Positions 14,579 to 54,837 of a stretch of 64,000 nt of DNA are shown piece by piece. The notes beneath the pieces were generated by a model. The model saw only the letters and a program-made list of their open reading frames with translations, did no database searches and had not been told where the DNA came from. The translations under genes and the position numbers were made by a program. The first letter of the stretch is position 1. Every line of letters starts with the position of its first letter. Source of the stretch: Candidatus Jettenia sp. (GTDB taxonomy: Bacteria > Planctomycetota > Brocadiia > Brocadiales > Brocadiaceae); the NCBI GenBank assembly GCA_021650895.1, contig CP091278.1:2695659-2759658 (forward strand), given 5' to 3'.

Positions 14579-17004
14579 ATGAATAATTTTCGGCATAAGT
14601 TTAAACCTGTTTTTAAGAATAATTGTGTTAGTATTGTGATGATACTTTTAATGCTAACCATTCTGATCGTTGGAGTATCGAAGTCAGGTGTATTTCCCCG
14701 TAGCGCTCAGGCTGCGTTAAAGACGGGTGGAGAAAAACCCGTATTCGATATTGGGGAATCCACGCAAACAGAAAGGCCATTATTCGAGTTAGAAGGGTCT
14801 GTCCATAAGGTAACAGAAGAAACATCGCATACAATACCGAGATTGTGGTGGGTTGCACCGATTGGTGCATTATGTGCTCTTTTTTATGCAAGAAAATTCT
14901 ACAAAGAAGTTATGAAGGCGCCTGAAGGAAATGAAAAAATGGTTTCGATAGCCCATCATGTGAGAGTAGGGGCTTATGCCTATCTGAAACAACAATACAA
15001 AGTAGTAAGCATATTCTTTCTTGGCGCTTTTCTTGTCCTCCTTTTTATTTCCTTTGGACTACACCTCCAGTCCAAGGTAGTACCTTTTGCATTCCTGTCC
15101 AGCGGTTTCTTGTCTGGTCTTGCAGGCTTCCTGGGTATGAAAACAGCCACAAGCGCCAGTTCAAGGACAGCGGAAGGCGCAAGGAAATCTCTGAACCAGG
15201 GACTGCAGGTTGCGTTCAGAAGTGGCGCCGTAATGGGACTCATTGTCGTGGGTATGGGTCTTTTGGATGTTTCCTTATGGTTTTTTGTATTTCGCAAATT
15301 TACCAATATTTCCCTGCTTGATATGGCTATGATGTTACCGTGTTTTGGTATCGGTGCTAGTTCTCAAGCCTTATTTGCAAGAGTGGGTGGCGGGATATTC
15401 ACTAAGGCAGCCGATGTAGGAGCTGATTTAGTTGGTAAAGTAGAAGCTGGTATTCCAGAGGATGATCCGAGAAATCCTGCTACTATTGCGGATAACGTCG
15501 GAGACAATGTTGGTGATGTGGCTGGGATGGGTGCAGATTTATATGAATCGTATTATAATTCTATGCTGGCCTGCGCAGCACTAGGAGTAACTGCCGGTTT
15601 GGGCATTGCAGGAATGATTGTACCGATGGTCTTATCGGGAATAGGAATCCTCCTCTCTATCATTGGTATCTATGCTGTTAAGACAAAGGAAGAGGCATCA
15701 CAGAAAGAACTCTTAAAGGCGTTGGGGAAAGGAATCAATCTGAGCTCAATCCTGATCCTGATTTTTTCAGCGGTGGTTATCAAATATTTATTACCTGAAA
15801 ATTTCGGTGTTTGGGGGTCGATTGTAACCGGTTTAGTAGCAGGTGTTATTATCGGTAAAGGTACGGAATTCTATACCTCTTCTAATTATTCACCAACAAA
15901 AGGTGTTGCTGGACAGGCAAAGACAGGTCCAGCTACCGTAATTATTGATGGTATTGCTACGGGGATGATGTCTACCATTATACCTGTCATTACGATTTCC
16001 ATAGCAATCTTATTAAGCTATGCCTTTGCGGGTGGCTTTTCAAATATCTCGCTTGGACTTTACGGGATTGCTATTGCAGCAGTTGGCATGCTTTCAACGT
16101 TGGGATTAACATTAGCTACAGATGCTTATGGGCCTATTGCGGATAATGCCGGTGGTAATGCAGAAATGAGCGGTCTGGAACCCTATGTCAGGGAAAGAAC
16201 TGATGCGCTCGATGCATTAGGAAATACAACAGCAGCTACAGGAAAGGGCTTTGCTATTGGCTCTGCCGCACTAACTGCTATGGCATTAATTGCTTCCTTT
16301 GTGGAGCAAATAAAAGTAGGATTAGAAAAATCAGGGTGCATGTTATTCAGATTGCCGGAGTTTCTATAGATCTGGCCAATGCGAAATTATCGGATCTTAT
16401 GCATTACCTGGATATTACTTTGATTAATCCCATGGTGTTGGTAGGTCTGTTTGTCGGCGGTTTATCAGCATTTATCTTCAGCGCTATGACGATGAAGGCT
16501 GTAGGCCGTGCTGCCGGAAGTATGGTAGAAGAGGTGAGAAGGCAATTTCGGGAGATTGCGGGTATTATGGATGGAACAGGAAAGCCTGACTATGCGGCAT
16601 GCGTTGCTATCAGTACGAAAGGGGCACAGCGGGAGATGCTCGTTCCTTCTATGCTCGCATTATTGGTGCCTATTGTTTCTGGTTTGATACTGGGTGTTCC
16701 TGGCGTCGTAGGACTTTTAGCCGGCAGTTTAAGTGTGGGTTTCCTGCTGGCGGTCTTTATGGCAAATGCGGGTGGAGCATGGGATAACGCAAAAAAGTAT
16801 ATTGAGGGTGGAGCTCTTGGCGGAAAAGGCTCTTCTGCGCATAAGGCTGCTGTCGTTGGCGATACAGTAGGTGACCCATTCAAAGATACATCAGGGCCAT
16901 CCTTGAATATTTTGCTGAAATTGATGTCGATTGTATCGGTAGTATTTGCTGGGATTATTATCAAATTCTCACCAAAGATAAGTGCCCTATTGCATCTCCA
17001 TTGA
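14579..17004 (+). CDS. hppA: K+-dependent membrane pyrophosphatase HppA, interrupted by a one-base frameshift
   Basis: This pump couples pyrophosphate hydrolysis to H+ or Na+ transport across the membrane. Signatures include [57 protein letters not shown], and [17 protein letters not shown]. The stretch [16 protein letters not shown] has Ala where K+-independent enzymes have Lys, so it is the K+-dependent class; H+ versus Na+ cannot be decided. The frame opened at 14579 stops at 16369, and the remaining 222 residues continue in the -1 frame up to 17004. Restoring one G in the GGG at 16334-16336 gives a seamless ..[14 protein letters not shown].. and about 808 residues. The ~90-residue leader with an extra membrane helix is longer than usual. 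The break could be a sequencing error or a real mutation. Confidence 0.9.
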
Positions 17005-18114: not shown

Positions 18115-19134
18115 ATGTTTATAAAAGCGACTATATCAAAGCTGGTAAGTAACCAAAATCTAAGTATTGAAGATAGTATGGCGGTGATGACAGAAATAAT
18201 GGAAGGAAATGTTACTGATGCACAAATTGCATCTTTTATTACCGCTTTACGTATGAAGGGAGAAACTGTCGAAGAAATTACCGGATGTGCTTTAGCCATG
18301 AGAAAAAAGGCTATTAAGATCAGAGCAGAAGATGGTGTCATAATCGATACATGCGGGACAGGAGGGGATGCTAAAAATACCTTTAATATCTCTACTGCTG
18401 CTGCCTTCGTCGTAGCAGGTACCGGCCTGAGGGTGGCAAAACATGGCAATAAAGCATCGTCCAGCCAGTGTGGGAGTGCAGATGTATTAAAACAGTTAGG
18501 TATCAATATTGAAGCTGATGTTAAGATAGTAGAAAGATGTATCAGGGAGGCTAATATTGGATTTCTCTTTGCTCCCATGTTGCACCAGGCAATGAAATAT
18601 GCCATCGGCCCTCGAAAGGAAATTGGAATTCGTACGGTATTTAATATCCTTGGGCCCTTAGCAAATCCAGCTGATGCTACCCATCGTATTCTTGGTGTGT
18701 ATAGTGAGCACTTAACTATTATTATGGCAGAAACCCTGCAGCGGCTTGGGGACCAACATGCCTTTGTCGTACATGGATTGGACGGTATGGATGAGATAAC
18801 GATTACAGATAAGACCAAGGTGTGTGAACTTGTAGGAAATACGATAAAAAGTTATTATCTCAACCCGGAAGACTTTGGTATAAAAAAATCAAAGCTTTCT
18901 GAGCTACTCGTAAATACACCGGATGAAAGTTCTCACGCAATTAAAGAAGTGTTGGATGGTATTCAAAGTCCAAAAAGGGATGTGGTGCTTTTAAATGCAG
19001 CAGCAGCGATTATTGCGGGGGGATTAGCAAAAGATTTTATAGAAGGGTTAAAAATTGCAGCACAATCTATCGATTCCGGGAGTGCAAAAGATAAGCTAAG
19101 GAAGTTACAGGAAATCAGTTGGCAATCCCTGTAA
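18115..19134 (+). CDS. trpD: Anthranilate phosphoribosyltransferase
   Basis: TrpD transfers phosphoribose from PRPP to anthranilate, the second committed step of tryptophan synthesis. PRPP/Mg motif DTCGTGGD is at 78-85 and KHGNKASSS at 109-117; the second metal site is represented by VHGLDGMDE. The 339-residue length is normal. No other trp gene lies nearby. The IIA-containing pseudogene starts 50 bases downstream. Confidence 0.96.
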   Translation: MFIKATISKLVSNQNLSIEDSMAVMTEIMEGNVTDAQIASFITALRMKGETVEEITGCALAMRKKAIKIRAEDGVIIDTCGTGGDAKNTFNISTAAAFVVAGTGLRVAKHGNKASSSQCGSADVLKQLGINIEADVKIVERCIREANIGFLFAPMLHQAMKYAIGPRKEIGIRTVFNILGPLANPADATHRILGVYSEHLTIIMAETLQRLGDQHAFVVHGLDGMDEITITDKTKVCELVGNTIKSYYLNPEDFGIKKSKLSELLVNTPDESSHAIKEVLDGIQSPKRDVVLLNAAAAIIAGGLAKDFIEGLKIAAQSIDSGSAKDKLRKLQEISWQSL

Positions 19135-19183
19135 GGGTGAGGGTAGCGAAAAAAATGCAAGCCTCTTGTCCGGAGGGTATGTC

Positions 19184-20196
19184 ATGAAACTTTCCGATTT
19201 TTTAGATAATAAAGTTATTACCATAAATCTCAAAGCAAGGCACAGGGGCACTGCGTTAAGTGAGATGGTGGGAATTCTCAAAAAAGCTGGGAAGATAAAA
19301 GACTCTGATACAATAATAAAGGCACTTTTGGAACGTGAAGCAACTGGTACCACGGGTATTGGGCAAGGGATGGCTTTTCCCCATGCGAGAATTTATGGAC
19401 TTAAGGATCCCGTAGCCTTGATCGCTCTATCGCAATTGGGTGTCGATTTCAATGCAAGGGATGCAGAACCTGTCTATCTATTTTTTCTCTTTTTAACTCC
19501 TACAGAGGAAACATCACTCCATCTTCAGATACTCTCAAAGACATTAGCGATTTTTAAAGATAAACAATTTCGTCGCTCACTTCAGCATGCCAAGACATCA
19601 AGCGAGGCCTTCAGTATTATTCTTAATTATGAGAAGGGTGGAAAAGAGGTCTTTTTCCCTCTTTCTATAGATGAAATATACAGGGAACTTGGAACAAATC
19701 CTTTAGGACTGTCTGAATCAGAGGCAAAAAGGCGACTTGAAAGTTATGGTCAAAATATTCTCAGAGAGGTGAAGAGGAAGAGTCTCATCCTGAGATTTAT
19801 AGAAAATCTCTATAATCTCCTTTAGCTTATGTGAAAGGAGTGCCTAAGGAAATTTTTAGTCTCTGTACCGGTATATTAATACATGGAAAAGCGGAACCGT
19901 AAATAGTACCCTTCATAGCCTTTGTTTTATTTAAGATACCTCTTCCTTTAACGGTCGTGCAAATACTGGCTAGGGAATCGATCTTTAAGGTTGGCTTCTT
20001 CAGCAATAAATTAGTGCTATTGGGAATAGCATCAGAGTTAATAATTATTTCGGCTCTGGTGTATACACCATTCCTGGAAAGGATATTTGGCCTTTTACCG
20101 ATAGGGTTAAAGGAGTGGGGATTTCTCTCTGTTTTTGCTCCAACCCTCCTCTTAATAGAAGAAGGGAGGAAGTGGATAGTGAGAAAGTGGCGGTAG
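19184..20196 (+). pseudogene. Remnant of a PTS IIA - P-type cation ATPase fusion
   Basis: From ATG 19184 (GGAGG seven bases ahead) a PTS EIIA-Ntr/fructose domain runs over residues 1-150, with phospho-histidine H67 in GMAFPHARI. It is followed by the N-terminal domain of P-type cation ATPases (IYRELGTNPLGLSESEAKRRLESYGQNIL). The frame stops at 19825 in what should be the first membrane helix. From 19903 in another frame the pump's end reappears: IVPFIAFVLFKIPLPLTVVQILA, directly joined to RESIFKVGFFSNKL..LLPIGLKEWGFL..EEGRKWIVR, ending at 20196. The A-domain, the phosphorylation domain with DKTGT and several helices are missing, and a second deletion lies between VQILA and RESIF. The gene is non-functional as a pump; the IIA part might still be made. 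Confidence 0.8.
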
Positions 20197-20392: not shown

Positions 20393-21253
20393 ATGAAGTC
20401 GATTAGCGATATTTTCTCAAAGACCTACGAGACACAAGAGGGGTTATGCTTCGTCGTAATGCCATTTTCAGAAAATCTAAGCGAGATTTACGAAAGAGTG
20501 CTCAAACCATCGGTTACGAGTGAGCCCCTTCTCATGCGCTGTATTCGTGGTGATGAAGTATATACGGACAAGCCAATAATGGGTGACGTCTGGGAGTTCA
20601 TTCAGAAGGCTGAGATTGTTATTGCCGATTTAACCGGAAGAAACCCAAACGTGCTTTACGAACTTGGCCTTTGTCATGCGCTCTGGAAGAAGGTCGTTAT
20701 GATTGCTCAATCTATTGAGGACTTGCCTTTTGATCTTCGCCATTTTCGGGCGATCATCTATAAACACACACTACGCGGTGCTGATGAGTTGCGGGAGAAC
20801 TTAGTAAGCGCAATTATGGAACTGCGTGCGCTGCCATCCGCATCGGAAGGAGTCGAATTTCTCCGGGATGATCCCGATTCTCTAAAGGAATTCGATGGAA
20901 TCCGGGTTATTGCGAAGAAAGACGCTTTATCCCCAACGCGAATTGTAATCAGGCGAGCGCATACGACTCAGATAAAGTATCCAACCATCACCATCTCTGT
21001 TTCCACAATAAATGTGACTGAGGATGGAGAGACCGAGTTCAGTATTGGATATATAATGGCTGGTTCCCGTATTCCAGAAAGCTTGAAAATTAAACTATAT
21101 CCGTCCCAGTACATAACGATTCGTAATACACGCTCCGTTCAGTTGTTTTACCTGACCCTGAACGCGATTGATTCGGAGCGAAAGAGTGCGCTAATCGATA
21201 TCGTTCCGCTACCAGCAGCAGAAGAAGGTGAAGAGTCATCTGCATCAAGCTAA
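20393..21253 (+). CDS. Nucleoside deoxyribosyltransferase-like (DRHyd) protein with C-terminal beta domain
   Basis: Residues 17-125 have the nucleoside 2-deoxyribosyltransferase-like fold: CFVVMPF, IYERVLKPSV, IMGDVWEFIQKAEIVIADLTGRNPNVLYELGLCHAL, IEDLPFDLRHFRAIIY. Glu90 of LYELG corresponds to the catalytic glutamate of the family. Stand-alone versions of this domain are predicted to attack nucleotides or NAD-like molecules in bacterial conflict systems. Residues 180-275 look like a beta-sandwich of unknown role. Base composition is visibly richer in G+C than its neighbours, suggesting transfer. The last four residues and the stop lie inside a repeat shared with 31548-31604, so the 3' end may have been altered. 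Confidence 0.72.
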   Translation: MKSISDIFSKTYETQEGLCFVVMPFSENLSEIYERVLKPSVTSEPLLMRCIRGDEVYTDKPIMGDVWEFIQKAEIVIADLTGRNPNVLYELGLCHALWKKVVMIAQSIEDLPFDLRHFRAIIYKHTLRGADELRENLVSAIMELRALPSASEGVEFLRDDPDSLKEFDGIRVIAKKDALSPTRIVIRRAHTTQIKYPTITISVSTINVTEDGETEFSIGYIMAGSRIPESLKIKLYPSQYITIRNTRSVQLFYLTLNAIDSERKSALIDIVPLPAAEEGEESSASS

Positions 21254-21423: not shown

Positions 21424-21482
21424 GGCACAGACAAATCATTCCTGCTCAAGACATACAGGGACAGGATTTATCTGTGTCGTGC
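21424..21482. repeat. Family B-like inverted repeat
   Basis: GGCACAGACAAATC and GATTTATCTGTGTCGTGC flank 27 bases of CAGG-rich sequence. This is a longer-loop member of the CACGGACAAA / TTTGTCCGTG family. Confidence 0.55.
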
Positions 21483-21675
21483 TCTAACTTAATACAACTG
21501 GCGTAGCCGTTAACTGATATTCGAGAGGTTCTCTTGTAAGCTGAGCTGAAGAACTATTTTTTAGCGGTTGATAGGCTGCACCATCAAAGGCAAAATAATC
21601 TCTGAGTCCTTTTCAGATGCAATGGTGGATTTACTTTGTTTAATCTACCCTACCAGATGATTGAGGAGTGAGTAA

Positions 21676-21701
21676 GGTGGATTAAGCGAAGCGAATCCAC
21701 C
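21676..21701. repeat. GGTGGATT inverted repeat
   Basis: GGTGGATT at 21676-21683 and AATCCACC at 21694-21701 around AAGCGAAGCG. The same motif is a common dispersed palindrome in many bacterial genomes. Confidence 0.6.
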
Positions 21702-21845
21702 AAAGGGATAAACTCCAGGCATGGATATAAACTTTGCAGGCAACCTCTTAGAAGCTATCCCAAAACCTATTTCTGTACGGGAACCTCTCTATTTTCAAAT
21801 GATTCTAAATACTAACAGTAAGGTTTTTAGATAACTCTCCAGACC

Positions 21846-21944
21846 GGGTGGCACGGACAAACTTTGTTTGTCCGTGCTTATTTACCTGCGTACATGGATA
21901 TGGATTACAAAACACTGACAAACAAAGTTTGTCAGTGCCACCCC
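21846..21944. repeat. REPIN-like pair of family B palindromes in opposite orientation
   Basis: The left unit (GGGTGGCACGGACAAAC..GTTTGTCCGTGC, 21846-21877) and the right unit (CACTGACAAAC..GTTTGTCAGTGCCACCCC, 21913-21944) are each palindromes and are also inverted copies of one another, so the 99 bases can fold as two hairpins or one long arm. This is the layout of REP doublets. Confidence 0.75.
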
Positions 21945-22408
21945 AGGTACCGGCTTACAGAGTATGAAAAATTCTCTCCTTATACCTACTATGTCTCACA
22001 TGATTCTCGATACCAAATTGAGGTTTTGGGATGACCTCTAGTATTTTTACCATTCCCGTAATAAAAATGCTTAATGACATTGCCCTGCCACCTCAAAAAC
22101 CGCTTACCTCAGATGATCCCGTCTCTTAGTAGGAAGCATTTCAAAAGCATTATTACCCGGCATACCTTTTTCTTTCCTTTCCGAAGGTTTTTACCGGAGA
22201 GATTCATGTAACCTCCTCAAAAATCAATCACCATCTCTCGATACTCGTGAAAATTTCTTGAATGTCAATTGCATATGATAAGTACATGAGGAATAGCAAA
22301 CTCTAGAGGCATCATAGGTAATTATGACTTTATTTTAAACTAATTAAGATGCGGTCGTGTCCAGTATTGGTCTCGTAATAATCCCAGGAAAGTATCATAT
22401 TACGCTGC

Positions 22409-52188: not shown

Positions 52189-54225
52189 TCAAAAGGCCTC
52201 TGGCAATATTTCAATAGCGATGTTCCTGAGATAATTCATTGTTTTTTCCGGATCATCAAAACGACAAGCTGTTTCCGCTACTTCTTTTGCTTTTTCCAGA
52301 GTAACAGACCGGATAATCTTTTTTATTTCAGGTATAATAGTGGCTGGCGCTACACTAAACTCTGTAATTCCTAATCCAATAAGGGGTATGGCATATTCGA
52401 CTTCACTTCCCATTTCCCCGCAAATTCCTACAGGGATATTATTTTCTTCTGCCGCTTTTATTGCAAGTTTCAAAAGCCTTAAGATGGCAGGATGTACAGG
52501 ACAATATAAATAAGCCACCCGTTCATTGTTTCTATCTACAGCCAAAGAATACTGGATAAGATCGTTAGTTCCGATGCTAAAGAAGTCACATTCTTTTGCC
52601 AAGGTATCTGCAATCATAACAGATGAAGGGACTTCAATCATAATTCCCATCTCGATGTTTTTATTGAACGGGATTTTTTCTTTATCTAATTCTTTCATGA
52701 CCTCCCAAACCATTTGTTTCGCACGTCTCAATTCCTGAAGGGAGGATATTAAAGGAAATAAAATTTTTACATCCCCCATGGCCGAAGCTCGTAAAATTGC
52801 TCTTAATTGTATTCTAAATATGGATGGGTTTTCAAAACAATAACGTATAGAACGACATCCCAAAAAAGGGTTTCCTTCTTTTCTATCATCAGAAAGAGCA
52901 AATTTATCTGCTCCTAAATCAAGTGTTCTAATAATAATAGGTTTATCCTTTAATTCCCGGACAACAGAGGTATAGGCTTCTAAATGTTCTTCTTCTGTTG
53001 GAGGTGTGGGAGAACCTAAATAAAGGAATTCTGTTCTATAAAGTCCAATTCCCTCAGCGCCGTATTTTGTATTTATATGGGTTTCTTTTGGAAACTCAAT
53101 ATTCCCATAAATGGAAATATGTTTTCCGTCCCGGGTTGTAGATGGCTGATCTCTCAGTTCGGTTGCTAATTTTTCCTCAAAGACATGGATGCTCTTAACC
53201 TTGCTTTGATAGGTTAAGAGTGTTTCTTCATCAGGCCTGACAATAACAATACCTCTGTTGCCATCTACAATTACAGTATCTCCGCCAAAGATATCTGTAG
53301 TGATGGTGCCTAATCCGACTACAGCCGGTATGCCCAAAGCGCGGGCAACTATGGCAGTATGGGACGTCCTTCCGCCTACATCAGTGGCAAATCCTCTTAC
53401 TTTTTCAGTATCAAGCGAAGCAGTTTGAGAAGGTGAAATATCATGTGCTATTAATACTACCTCCTGGGCAAGATTTTTCAGTTCTTCTCTTTTTTCACCC
53501 AATAAATTTCTGAGAAGCCTTCGTTCAACATCAAAAATATCACTTACTCTTTCTGCCAGATAAGAATCATTAACATCCTGAAATTTTCTGATGTAAACAC
53601 GTAAGGCCAGGGATACAGCAAATTCCGGTGTGAAATTTGTTTTCTTTATTTTATCGATAATTTCATTTTTTAAACGTATGTCTTGTAAGACCATTCGGTG
53701 TGTGCCAAAGATAGATCCAATTTCAGAACCTAAATTCTCAGAGACCCTCGATTCTAAATCCTGAATTTCCTTTTTGGAATCTTCTATGGCCTTCTCAAGC
53801 CTGTAGATCTCTCCATCTACCTCTTCTTTTCGTATAATATGGCGAGGAATGCGGTATCCTTCACTCTCAAACATAAAGGCCTCACGAATGACCACCCCTG
53901 GTGAAACTGCAATTCCCTTCCTGATCTCCATGAATTCTTCTTCAAATTTACTCTTTACCAATCCTTCCAGTGCGTCCAGTGCCTCTGCTGCATCAACTCC
54001 TTTCGCACTCATTACTATCTCTGTATCATTTTCTGCACCAAGAGTTAAGAGCTCAATGACGCTTTTACCATCAACCTCTTTATTTTTTGTTTTTATACGA
54101 ATCTCTGATGTATATTTATTGGCAATTTCAGCAAATTTAGTAGCAGGCCGAGCGTGCATGCCATTGGAATTGGAGATTTTTACTTTTCTTTCTAATAATT
54201 TACAATTGATACTATGAATATCCAT
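52189..54225 (-). CDS. ptsI: HPr - Enzyme I fusion of the phosphotransferase system
   Basis: HPr occupies residues 10-95 with phospho-acceptor H24 (NSNGMHARPATKFAE) and a Ser55 region (GKSVIELLTLGA) like the kinase site of Gram-positive HPr. Enzyme I follows from about 100 (RKGIAVSPGVV), with active H289 (TDVGGRTSHTAIVARALG) and the PEP-binding barrel (EGIGLYRTEFLYL, IRTLDLGADK, GTNDLIQYSLAVDR, PVGICGEMGS). One chain thus passes phosphate from PEP to HPr. The only acceptor seen is PtsN, encoded about 100 bases upstream. No sugar permease is in the window, suggesting a regulatory PTS. Total 678 residues. Confidence 0.95.
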   Translation of the reverse strand: MDIHSINCKLLERKVKISNSNGMHARPATKFAEIANKYTSEIRIKTKNKEVDGKSVIELLTLGAENDTEIVMSAKGVDAAEALDALEGLVKSKFEEEFMEIRKGIAVSPGVVIREAFMFESEGYRIPRHIIRKEEVDGEIYRLEKAIEDSKKEIQDLESRVSENLGSEIGSIFGTHRMVLQDIRLKNEIIDKIKKTNFTPEFAVSLALRVYIRKFQDVNDSYLAERVSDIFDVERRLLRNLLGEKREELKNLAQEVVLIAHDISPSQTASLDTEKVRGFATDVGGRTSHTAIVARALGIPAVVGLGTITTDIFGGDTVIVDGNRGIVIVRPDEETLLTYQSKVKSIHVFEEKLATELRDQPSTTRDGKHISIYGNIEFPKETHINTKYGAEGIGLYRTEFLYLGSPTPPTEEEHLEAYTSVVRELKDKPIIIRTLDLGADKFALSDDRKEGNPFLGCRSIRYCFENPSIFRIQLRAILRASAMGDVKILFPLISSLQELRRAKQMVWEVMKELDKEKIPFNKNIEMGIMIEVPSSVMIADTLAKECDFFSIGTNDLIQYSLAVDRNNERVAYLYCPVHPAILRLLKLAIKAAEENNIPVGICGEMGSEVEYAIPLIGLGITEFSVAPATIIPEIKKIIRSVTLEKAKEVAETACRFDDPEKTMNYLRNIAIEILPEAF

Positions 54226-54339: not shown

Positions 54340-54810
54340 TCAAACTTGAATACCATCAACCTCTTTTAATATTTCAATAATACCGGTTTTACCATTCGCT
54401 TCACGCATAAAGCGGCGGAAATCATTATCTCTTATAACTGTAGATATTTTCTCTAATGCGGCAAGATGCGATCCGGCAGAATCATTGGGAGAAAGTAACA
54501 AGAAGAAAAGGTAGACAGGCTCTCCGTCCAGAGCATTGAAGTCAACACCACTTGATGACCGTGCAATTGTTCCCACGATCTTTTTTGTACAATCATGTTT
54601 CGTATGAGGAACAGCTACGCCTTTTCCTATGCCGGTACTCCCCAATTCTTCCCTTTTCATAAGGGATTTAATAACATTCTCAACATCTTTACTATTAATT
54701 TTCTGCGCGTCTTTAAGAGAAAATACCATTTCCCGGATTACCGCTTCCTTTTCAGTAGCTTTAAGCTCTGTAATAATAGCGTCTTCTACAATAAAATCAG
54801 TTAGTTTCAT
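54340..54810 (-). CDS. ptsN: PTS EIIA-Ntr-type regulatory protein
   Basis: EIIA-fructose/Ntr domain with phospho-His69 (GKGVAVPHTKHD), LGSTGIGKG and VDFNALDGEPVYLFFLLLSP. The frame extends to TTG 54828 but the ATG at 54810 is preferred because GGAGG lies eleven bases ahead and both relatives begin MKLTDF/MKLSDF. It is similar to the IIA domain at 19184. It lies between hpf and the HPr-EI fusion. Confidence 0.93.
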   Translation of the reverse strand: MKLTDFIVEDAIITELKATEKEAVIREMVFSLKDAQKINSKDVENVIKSLMKREELGSTGIGKGVAVPHTKHDCTKKIVGTIARSSSGVDFNALDGEPVYLFFLLLSPNDSAGSHLAALEKISTVIRDNDFRRFMREANGKTGIIEILKEVDGIQV

Positions 54811-54837
54811 ATAAAAAGATACCTCCAATAGAATTGT

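Follow-up and report, generated by a model that had tools for sequence, protein, structure and literature searches.

What protein was once encoded by a broken gene of Candidatus Jettenia sp., in which a domain of the phosphotransferase system (PTS) runs into the beginning of a P-type ATPase and then stops? The gene lies in a stretch of 64,000 nucleotides (contig CP091278.1, positions 2,695,659 to 2,759,658), referred to here as the window and numbered from its first letter. Comparison with related sequences makes it probable that the window holds the pseudogene of a ~1068-aa protein, in which an N-terminal EIIA-Ntr domain preceded a P2C-like ATPase, and that this protein was a Na+/K+ pump under the control of the PTS-Ntr phosphorelay, since lost in the window genome. 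As a pseudogene the wreck is ordinary, but the domain combination behind it is unusual. Literature searches, which drew mostly on the opening lines of abstracts, found no paper describing an EIIA–P-type ATPase fusion.

Remnants of the fusion gene in the window

The open frame at 19184-19822 on the forward strand comprises 213 codons, which encode an EIIA domain and then a Cation_ATPase_N domain. The Pfam family PTS_EIIA_2 is matched over residues 6-148 (E 3e-31; 108.8 bits against a cut-off of 27) and Cation_ATPase_N over residues 160-212 (E 6e-13). The ATG at 19184 is the start common to the orthologues, and a Shine-Dalgarno-like GGAGGG is present 6 nt 5' of it (19172-19177, forward strand); a scan for promoters and terminators did no better than on shuffled sequences. 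Pfam, solved relatives and the orthologue alignment assign codons 1-155 (19184-19648) to the EIIA-Ntr-type domain, with His67 at 19382-19384, and Pfam and identity to an intact orthologue assign codons 156-213 (19649-19822) to a linker and the P-type ATPase N-terminus. This orthologue, L025 from the same-genus genome G002, is 97% identical to the window over the 213 residues. The sequence-only reading, that an intact EIIA-Ntr domain with its active histidine runs into the pump N-terminus and stops, is borne out by the Pfam domains and by His67.

That reading had also proposed two internal deletions, but alignment to L025 (6373-9576) reveals three. The first removes L025 7012-8212 (1201 bp), with loss of frame and a TAG stop (19823-19825, forward strand) right at the junction, 19822/19823; it is followed by a forward-strand remnant of the cytoplasmic part of the ATPase (19823-19896; L025 residues about 614-638, AYVKG...). 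The second removes L025 8287-8958 (672 bp) at junction 19896/19897, after which a TM5-6 remnant on the same strand (19897-19970; residues 863-887, IVPF...VQILA) carries an in-frame TAA. The third removes L025 9033-9350 (318 bp) at junction 19970/19971, which is the VQILA to RESIF join, already described correctly, and leads into a forward-strand remnant of the last helices (19971-20196; residues about 993-1067; 95% identity to L025). The pump's last helices had been said to reappear 80 bases beyond the open frame. They are indeed there, with Cation_ATPase_C on the ORF at 19957-20196 (E 4e-14), but the 80 bases are filled by the scraps of residues about 614-638 and 863-887. Perfect microhomology at the three joins amounts to 0, 0 and 1 bp, and a C-to-T change at 20194 creates a stop one codon ahead of that of the orthologues. 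The 1201-bp block was not found elsewhere in the 3.82-Mb genome, where the sole match was 109 bp at 72%. Compared with the intact orthologues, the catalytic domains and the frame are gone, which makes the locus a pseudogene, and the pump is dead in the window genome.

The ORF lists place a gene that we take to be trpD (18115-19134, forward strand) 49 bp upstream of the fusion remnant. On the same assumption for the genes of the siblings, trpD is found just upstream in all three Jettenia genomes and in Loosdrechtia (G005), and an H+-pyrophosphatase gene is found further up. In the window the latter (14579-17004) is in two frames, 1 bp being lost from a run of G near 16333, and in both sibling genomes it is one frame of 808 codons; the split could be a sequencing error or a real break. 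Downstream of the pseudogene, a gene at 20393-21253 is conserved in both siblings; its only match, to nucleoside deoxyribosyltransferase, is below threshold (E 0.011). A segment of about 880 bp at 21458-22335 is absent from the sibling G002 and has palindromes of the type GGCACGGACAAACTTTGTTTGTCCGTGC; it is possibly a small mobile element or a repeat.

Class and neighbours of the pump

With L025 as the query, the best-scoring NCBIfam subfamily model is TIGR01106 (Na,H/K; 663 bits), ahead of TIGR01522 (PMR1 Ca; 650) and SERCA (588). All of these scores lie below cut-off, that of TIGR01106 being curated at 946 bits, and the pump is therefore called only P2C-like. A PDB profile search with the fusion returns Na,K-ATPase alpha first (3e-191), and for L057, a stand-alone ATPase from the same family, the best PDB match is LMCA1. 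A tree of 20 ATPase rows, which included one animal and one LMCA1 reference and left out L051, splits with 100/100 support into nine fusions, Na,K alpha3 and the archaeal stand-alone L043 on one side and LMCA1 with eight stand-alone ATPases on the other. The branch of the animal sequence is long, and its exact place has 84/78 support. At the ion site, in Na,K-ATPase position numbers, all nine fusions agree with Na,K alpha3 at 10 of the 13 positions read (E327, Y771, S775, N776, E779, D804, T807, D808, Q923 and E954) and differ at T774 (A), D926 (N) and E953 (S or T). All nine rows of the P2A side have N in place of D804 and a residue other than E at position 954. The catalytic motifs DKTGT and TGDGVNDAP are invariant in the seven orthologues aligned, and TGES is found in six of them, with SGES in L029.

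The fusion thus resembles Na,K-ATPase alpha and prokaryotic P2C-like ATPases in best subfamily model, best PDB matches, tree side and 10 of the 13 ion-site residues read, and is unlike Na,K-ATPase alpha in its N-terminal EIIA domain, its score below the TIGR01106 cut-off and its three substitutions. By sequence class the pump is P2C-like, on the Na,K-ATPase side, and not Kdp-like, which corrects the first reading. The KdpFABC K+ pump (P1A) is comparable as a P-type ATPase tied to PTS-Ntr through KdpD, but it belongs to another P-type class, given that L025 reaches 107 bits with the kdpB model TIGR01497 against 663 with TIGR01106.

Genes for K+ or Na+ handling (KimA, KdpD/KdpE-like, NhaD) are found near four of the 11 copies in the family. 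In G030, a KimA homologue (PDB 6s3k, 8.6e-57) lies 117 bp upstream of the fusion, and a kinase like the C-terminal half of KdpD and a response regulator lie downstream. A similar kinase lies 54 bp downstream of the fusion in G003, again with a response regulator. Both kinases match the KdpD model by far the best, at 368 and 380 bits versus about 180, with scores below cut-off and with the N-terminal KdpD part missing. The order in G020 is trpD, a KimA-like permease and the fusion; this permease matches Pfam amino-acid permeases, and the name KimA-like reflects its resemblance to the permease of G030. Downstream of the fusion in G004 are genes for NhaD, which is in two frames, for an ArsB/MamN-like transporter and for a CBS protein. 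The fusion of G006 is flanked by what we recognise as pst genes and by phoU. For the other seven copies, we recognised no gene for K+ or Na+ transport in the flanks read, some of them short.

Could the ATPase half instead be a Ca2+ pump (P2A-type) or another cation pump that is merely Na,K-like, such that the IIA domain regulates something besides K+ and Na+? The closeness of the TIGR01522 and TIGR01106 scores, neither at cut-off, would allow for this, as would the N at D926 and the copies near pst/phoU (G006) or pyrophosphatase (G005), which give no hint of K+. We consider it unlikely, given the pattern at D804, S775, N776 and E954, the 100/100 grouping with Na,K alpha and away from LMCA1, and the KimA, KdpD-like and NhaD neighbours. 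The earlier proposals, that the lineage had a cation pump with a built-in PTS domain and that this parallels the control of K+ by PtsN, are supported to the extent that sequence class and these neighbours can support them.

The IIA domain and its proposed phosphate donors

The IIA half is of the EIIA-Ntr type, given its Pfam score above cut-off and a phospho-accepting histidine in a PH motif. Each of the five solved relatives among the matches listed is a PTS IIA protein, and the four best are nitrogen-regulatory IIA/PtsN; His67 aligns with the PH of the nitrogen-regulatory structures. The domain is not filed as PtsN, since it scores 80.6 bits with the PtsN equivalog model TIGR01419, which has a cut-off of 138.7. 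In a tree of 22 IIA rows, several forks of which are weak, the fused domains group as a single clade, separate from the PtsN-like proteins that these bacteria also encode.

A donor chain exists, because the same window carries an HPr-EI fusion and a free-standing PtsN-like EIIA, both on the reverse strand and 32-35 kb from the pump remnant. The HPr-EI fusion (52189-54225) has the Pfam domains PTS-HPr and PEP-utilizers and scores 601 bits with TIGR01417 (cut-off 342), and the PtsN-like protein (54340-54828) is 45% identical to the fused IIA over residues 1-145 and matches TIGR00848 at cut-off, with 103.5 bits. A further IIA domain, less closely related (36%; L003, G000:C1:2100167-2100652, reverse strand), adjoins a frame of 342 aa that by eye looks like a CorC/HlyC-type protein.

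The fused IIA might also be a passive passenger, with its fold kept but with no role in a phosphorelay. That neither the PtsN nor the fruA model reaches its cut-off, and that His67 is the only residue examined for function, leave some room for such a passenger. It is nonetheless an improbable one, since His67 and its PHA motif are invariant in seven of seven aligned orthologues, even though identity to the window over the first 213 residues falls to 62% in the most distant of them, and since EI and HPr are present. For a regulatory IIA, as in the preferred reading of a PTS-gated pump, PtsN control of K+ transport offers an analogy. Unphosphorylated PtsN binds and controls TrkA, YcgO and KdpD, and a second ptsN is found in the kdp operons of about 10% of alpha-proteobacteria (PMC13104625, PMC11808508). 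The fusion has the same type of EIIA, and its target, monovalent-cation transport, is probably of a similar kind. However, PtsN is a separate protein that binds transporters and sensors, whereas here the IIA domain is covalently part of the pump. An AlphaFold model of the L025 fusion from an 11-row alignment was discarded (mean pLDDT 42.9, pTM 0.27), and no docking of IIA on the pump could be seen from it.

Distribution, decay and meaning of the fusion

The two parts would be accidental neighbours if no genome carried an EIIA domain fused to an intact P-type ATPase, but a search of related genomes finds such fusions. Among the 33 genomes of the family, that of the window included, eight have an open fusion (G001-G006, G026 and G028), three have differently broken copies (G000, which is the window genome, G020 and G030) and 22 have none. 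Seven of the open fusions are complete, and that of G028 ends with its contig after 1061 residues; together with one fusion from outside the family (L041), they are 1061-1071 aa long. When the last 188 residues of L025 are used as the query, 11 of the 33 genomes match at 57% identity or above; of the other 22, 20 match at 36% or less and two not at all. Across 392 genomes of the phylum, the IIA-ATPase junction is found solely in this family among the matches listed (10 genomes, at least 62% identity). A scan of named genomes with two short peptide patterns, which distant fusions could escape, gave 10 loci, eight of them with the fusion: seven from Planctomycetota, including Candidatus Jettenia ecosi, Candidatus Loosdrechtia aerotolerans and Brocadia-type bins, and L041, labelled Desulfuromonadales.

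No relative of the fusion was found on viral contigs. Plasmids match in 444 records, all below 60% identity, and the matches in 10 of these all begin at query residue 157-163 and are thus ATPase without IIA. Stand-alone relatives of the pump occur in a Methanobacteriaceae genome and also on plasmids, those of cyanobacteria and Lactiplantibacillus being 44-47% identical (10 of the 444 records).

The fusion of L041 (6001-9213, on a 38.8-kb contig) is intact and 74% identical to L025 over residues 1-1065. That this might be a mis-binned Brocadiales contig was rejected from one gene compared, as the ProS encoded there is 90% identical to that of G417, of the same order, and 52-54% identical to those of six Brocadiaceae genomes. 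The copy outside Brocadiales therefore looks to have been transferred, which we regard as probable. In the ATPase tree it is sister to the family fusions; in the IIA tree, where resolution is low, it is placed within their group. This genome also contains a further C-terminal fragment of 70% identity (G415:C65). Both the ATPase and the IIA tree unite the fusions in one clade, at 100/100 support, and a single origin is thus the simplest reading.

The two other broken copies (L033 8998-11082; L034 5701-7779) have no break in common with the window. Compared with G028, the copy of G020 is missing its first 40-odd nt, a further 214 nt are deleted and 2 nt are inserted, and the frame of the KimA-like permease upstream runs straight into the IIA domain. 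The copy of G030 has an in-frame loss of 855 nt and a 1-nt frameshift. Single-base breaks in these two copies may be errors, given that G020 is in three contigs and G030 in about 300. This history of three distinct breaks and one probable transfer suggests that the gene is of use under some conditions and can be spared under others.

In the window genome, 6 private changes fall in the open frame (639 nt; 3 nonsynonymous) and 12 in the remnants (360 nt; 8 nonsynonymous), with one ambiguous IIA site set aside; the two siblings together have 21 and 9. The open frame differs from the remnants both within the window genome (Fisher p 0.011) and against the siblings (0.018), and does not differ from trpD (12 in 1017, p 0.81). 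These small counts hint that the IIA frame is still constrained. The frame of the IIA part is open and preceded by a good ribosome-binding site, and the IIA part may still act as a second, free EIIA.

That misassembly created the three deletions, the gene being intact in the organism, is very unlikely, for although the H+-pyrophosphatase gene in the same window has a 1-bp homopolymer indel that could be an error, the genome is a single 3.82-Mb contig and 99.9% complete, the deletions are separate and accompanied by frame loss, the 1201-bp block is absent from the rest of the genome, the remnants hold the excess of private changes over the IIA frame that is expected after decay, and the same gene is broken differently in two other genomes.

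For the intact relatives, the preferred reading is of a pump switched through its own IIA domain. Phosphate from PEP would reach His67 by way of EI and HPr, and whether the IIA domain is phosphorylated would set the activity of the Na+/K+ pump. In this way, monovalent-cation balance would be tied to the PEP/energy and nitrogen state of the cell. In its fullest form, which we offer tentatively, the proposal is of a prokaryotic Na+/K+-type pump switched by the PEP phosphotransferase chain via a built-in EIIA, with the pump lost in the window organism and the IIA kept as a free second PtsN-like regulator.

A 2023 review implicates the N-termini of eukaryotic P2C pumps in regulation, and treats the role of P2C (Na,K-type) ATPases in archaea as an open question, the archaeal products being uncharacterised (PMC10654040). 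A PTS domain fused to a P2C-type pump would give a concrete handle on pump regulation. The theme of PTS-Ntr control of K+ would become a physical link within a single polypeptide, testable with one purified protein. In the ammonium-oxidising relatives, a pump like the animal sodium pump that carries a PTS IIA domain could tie ion pumping directly to the energy state.
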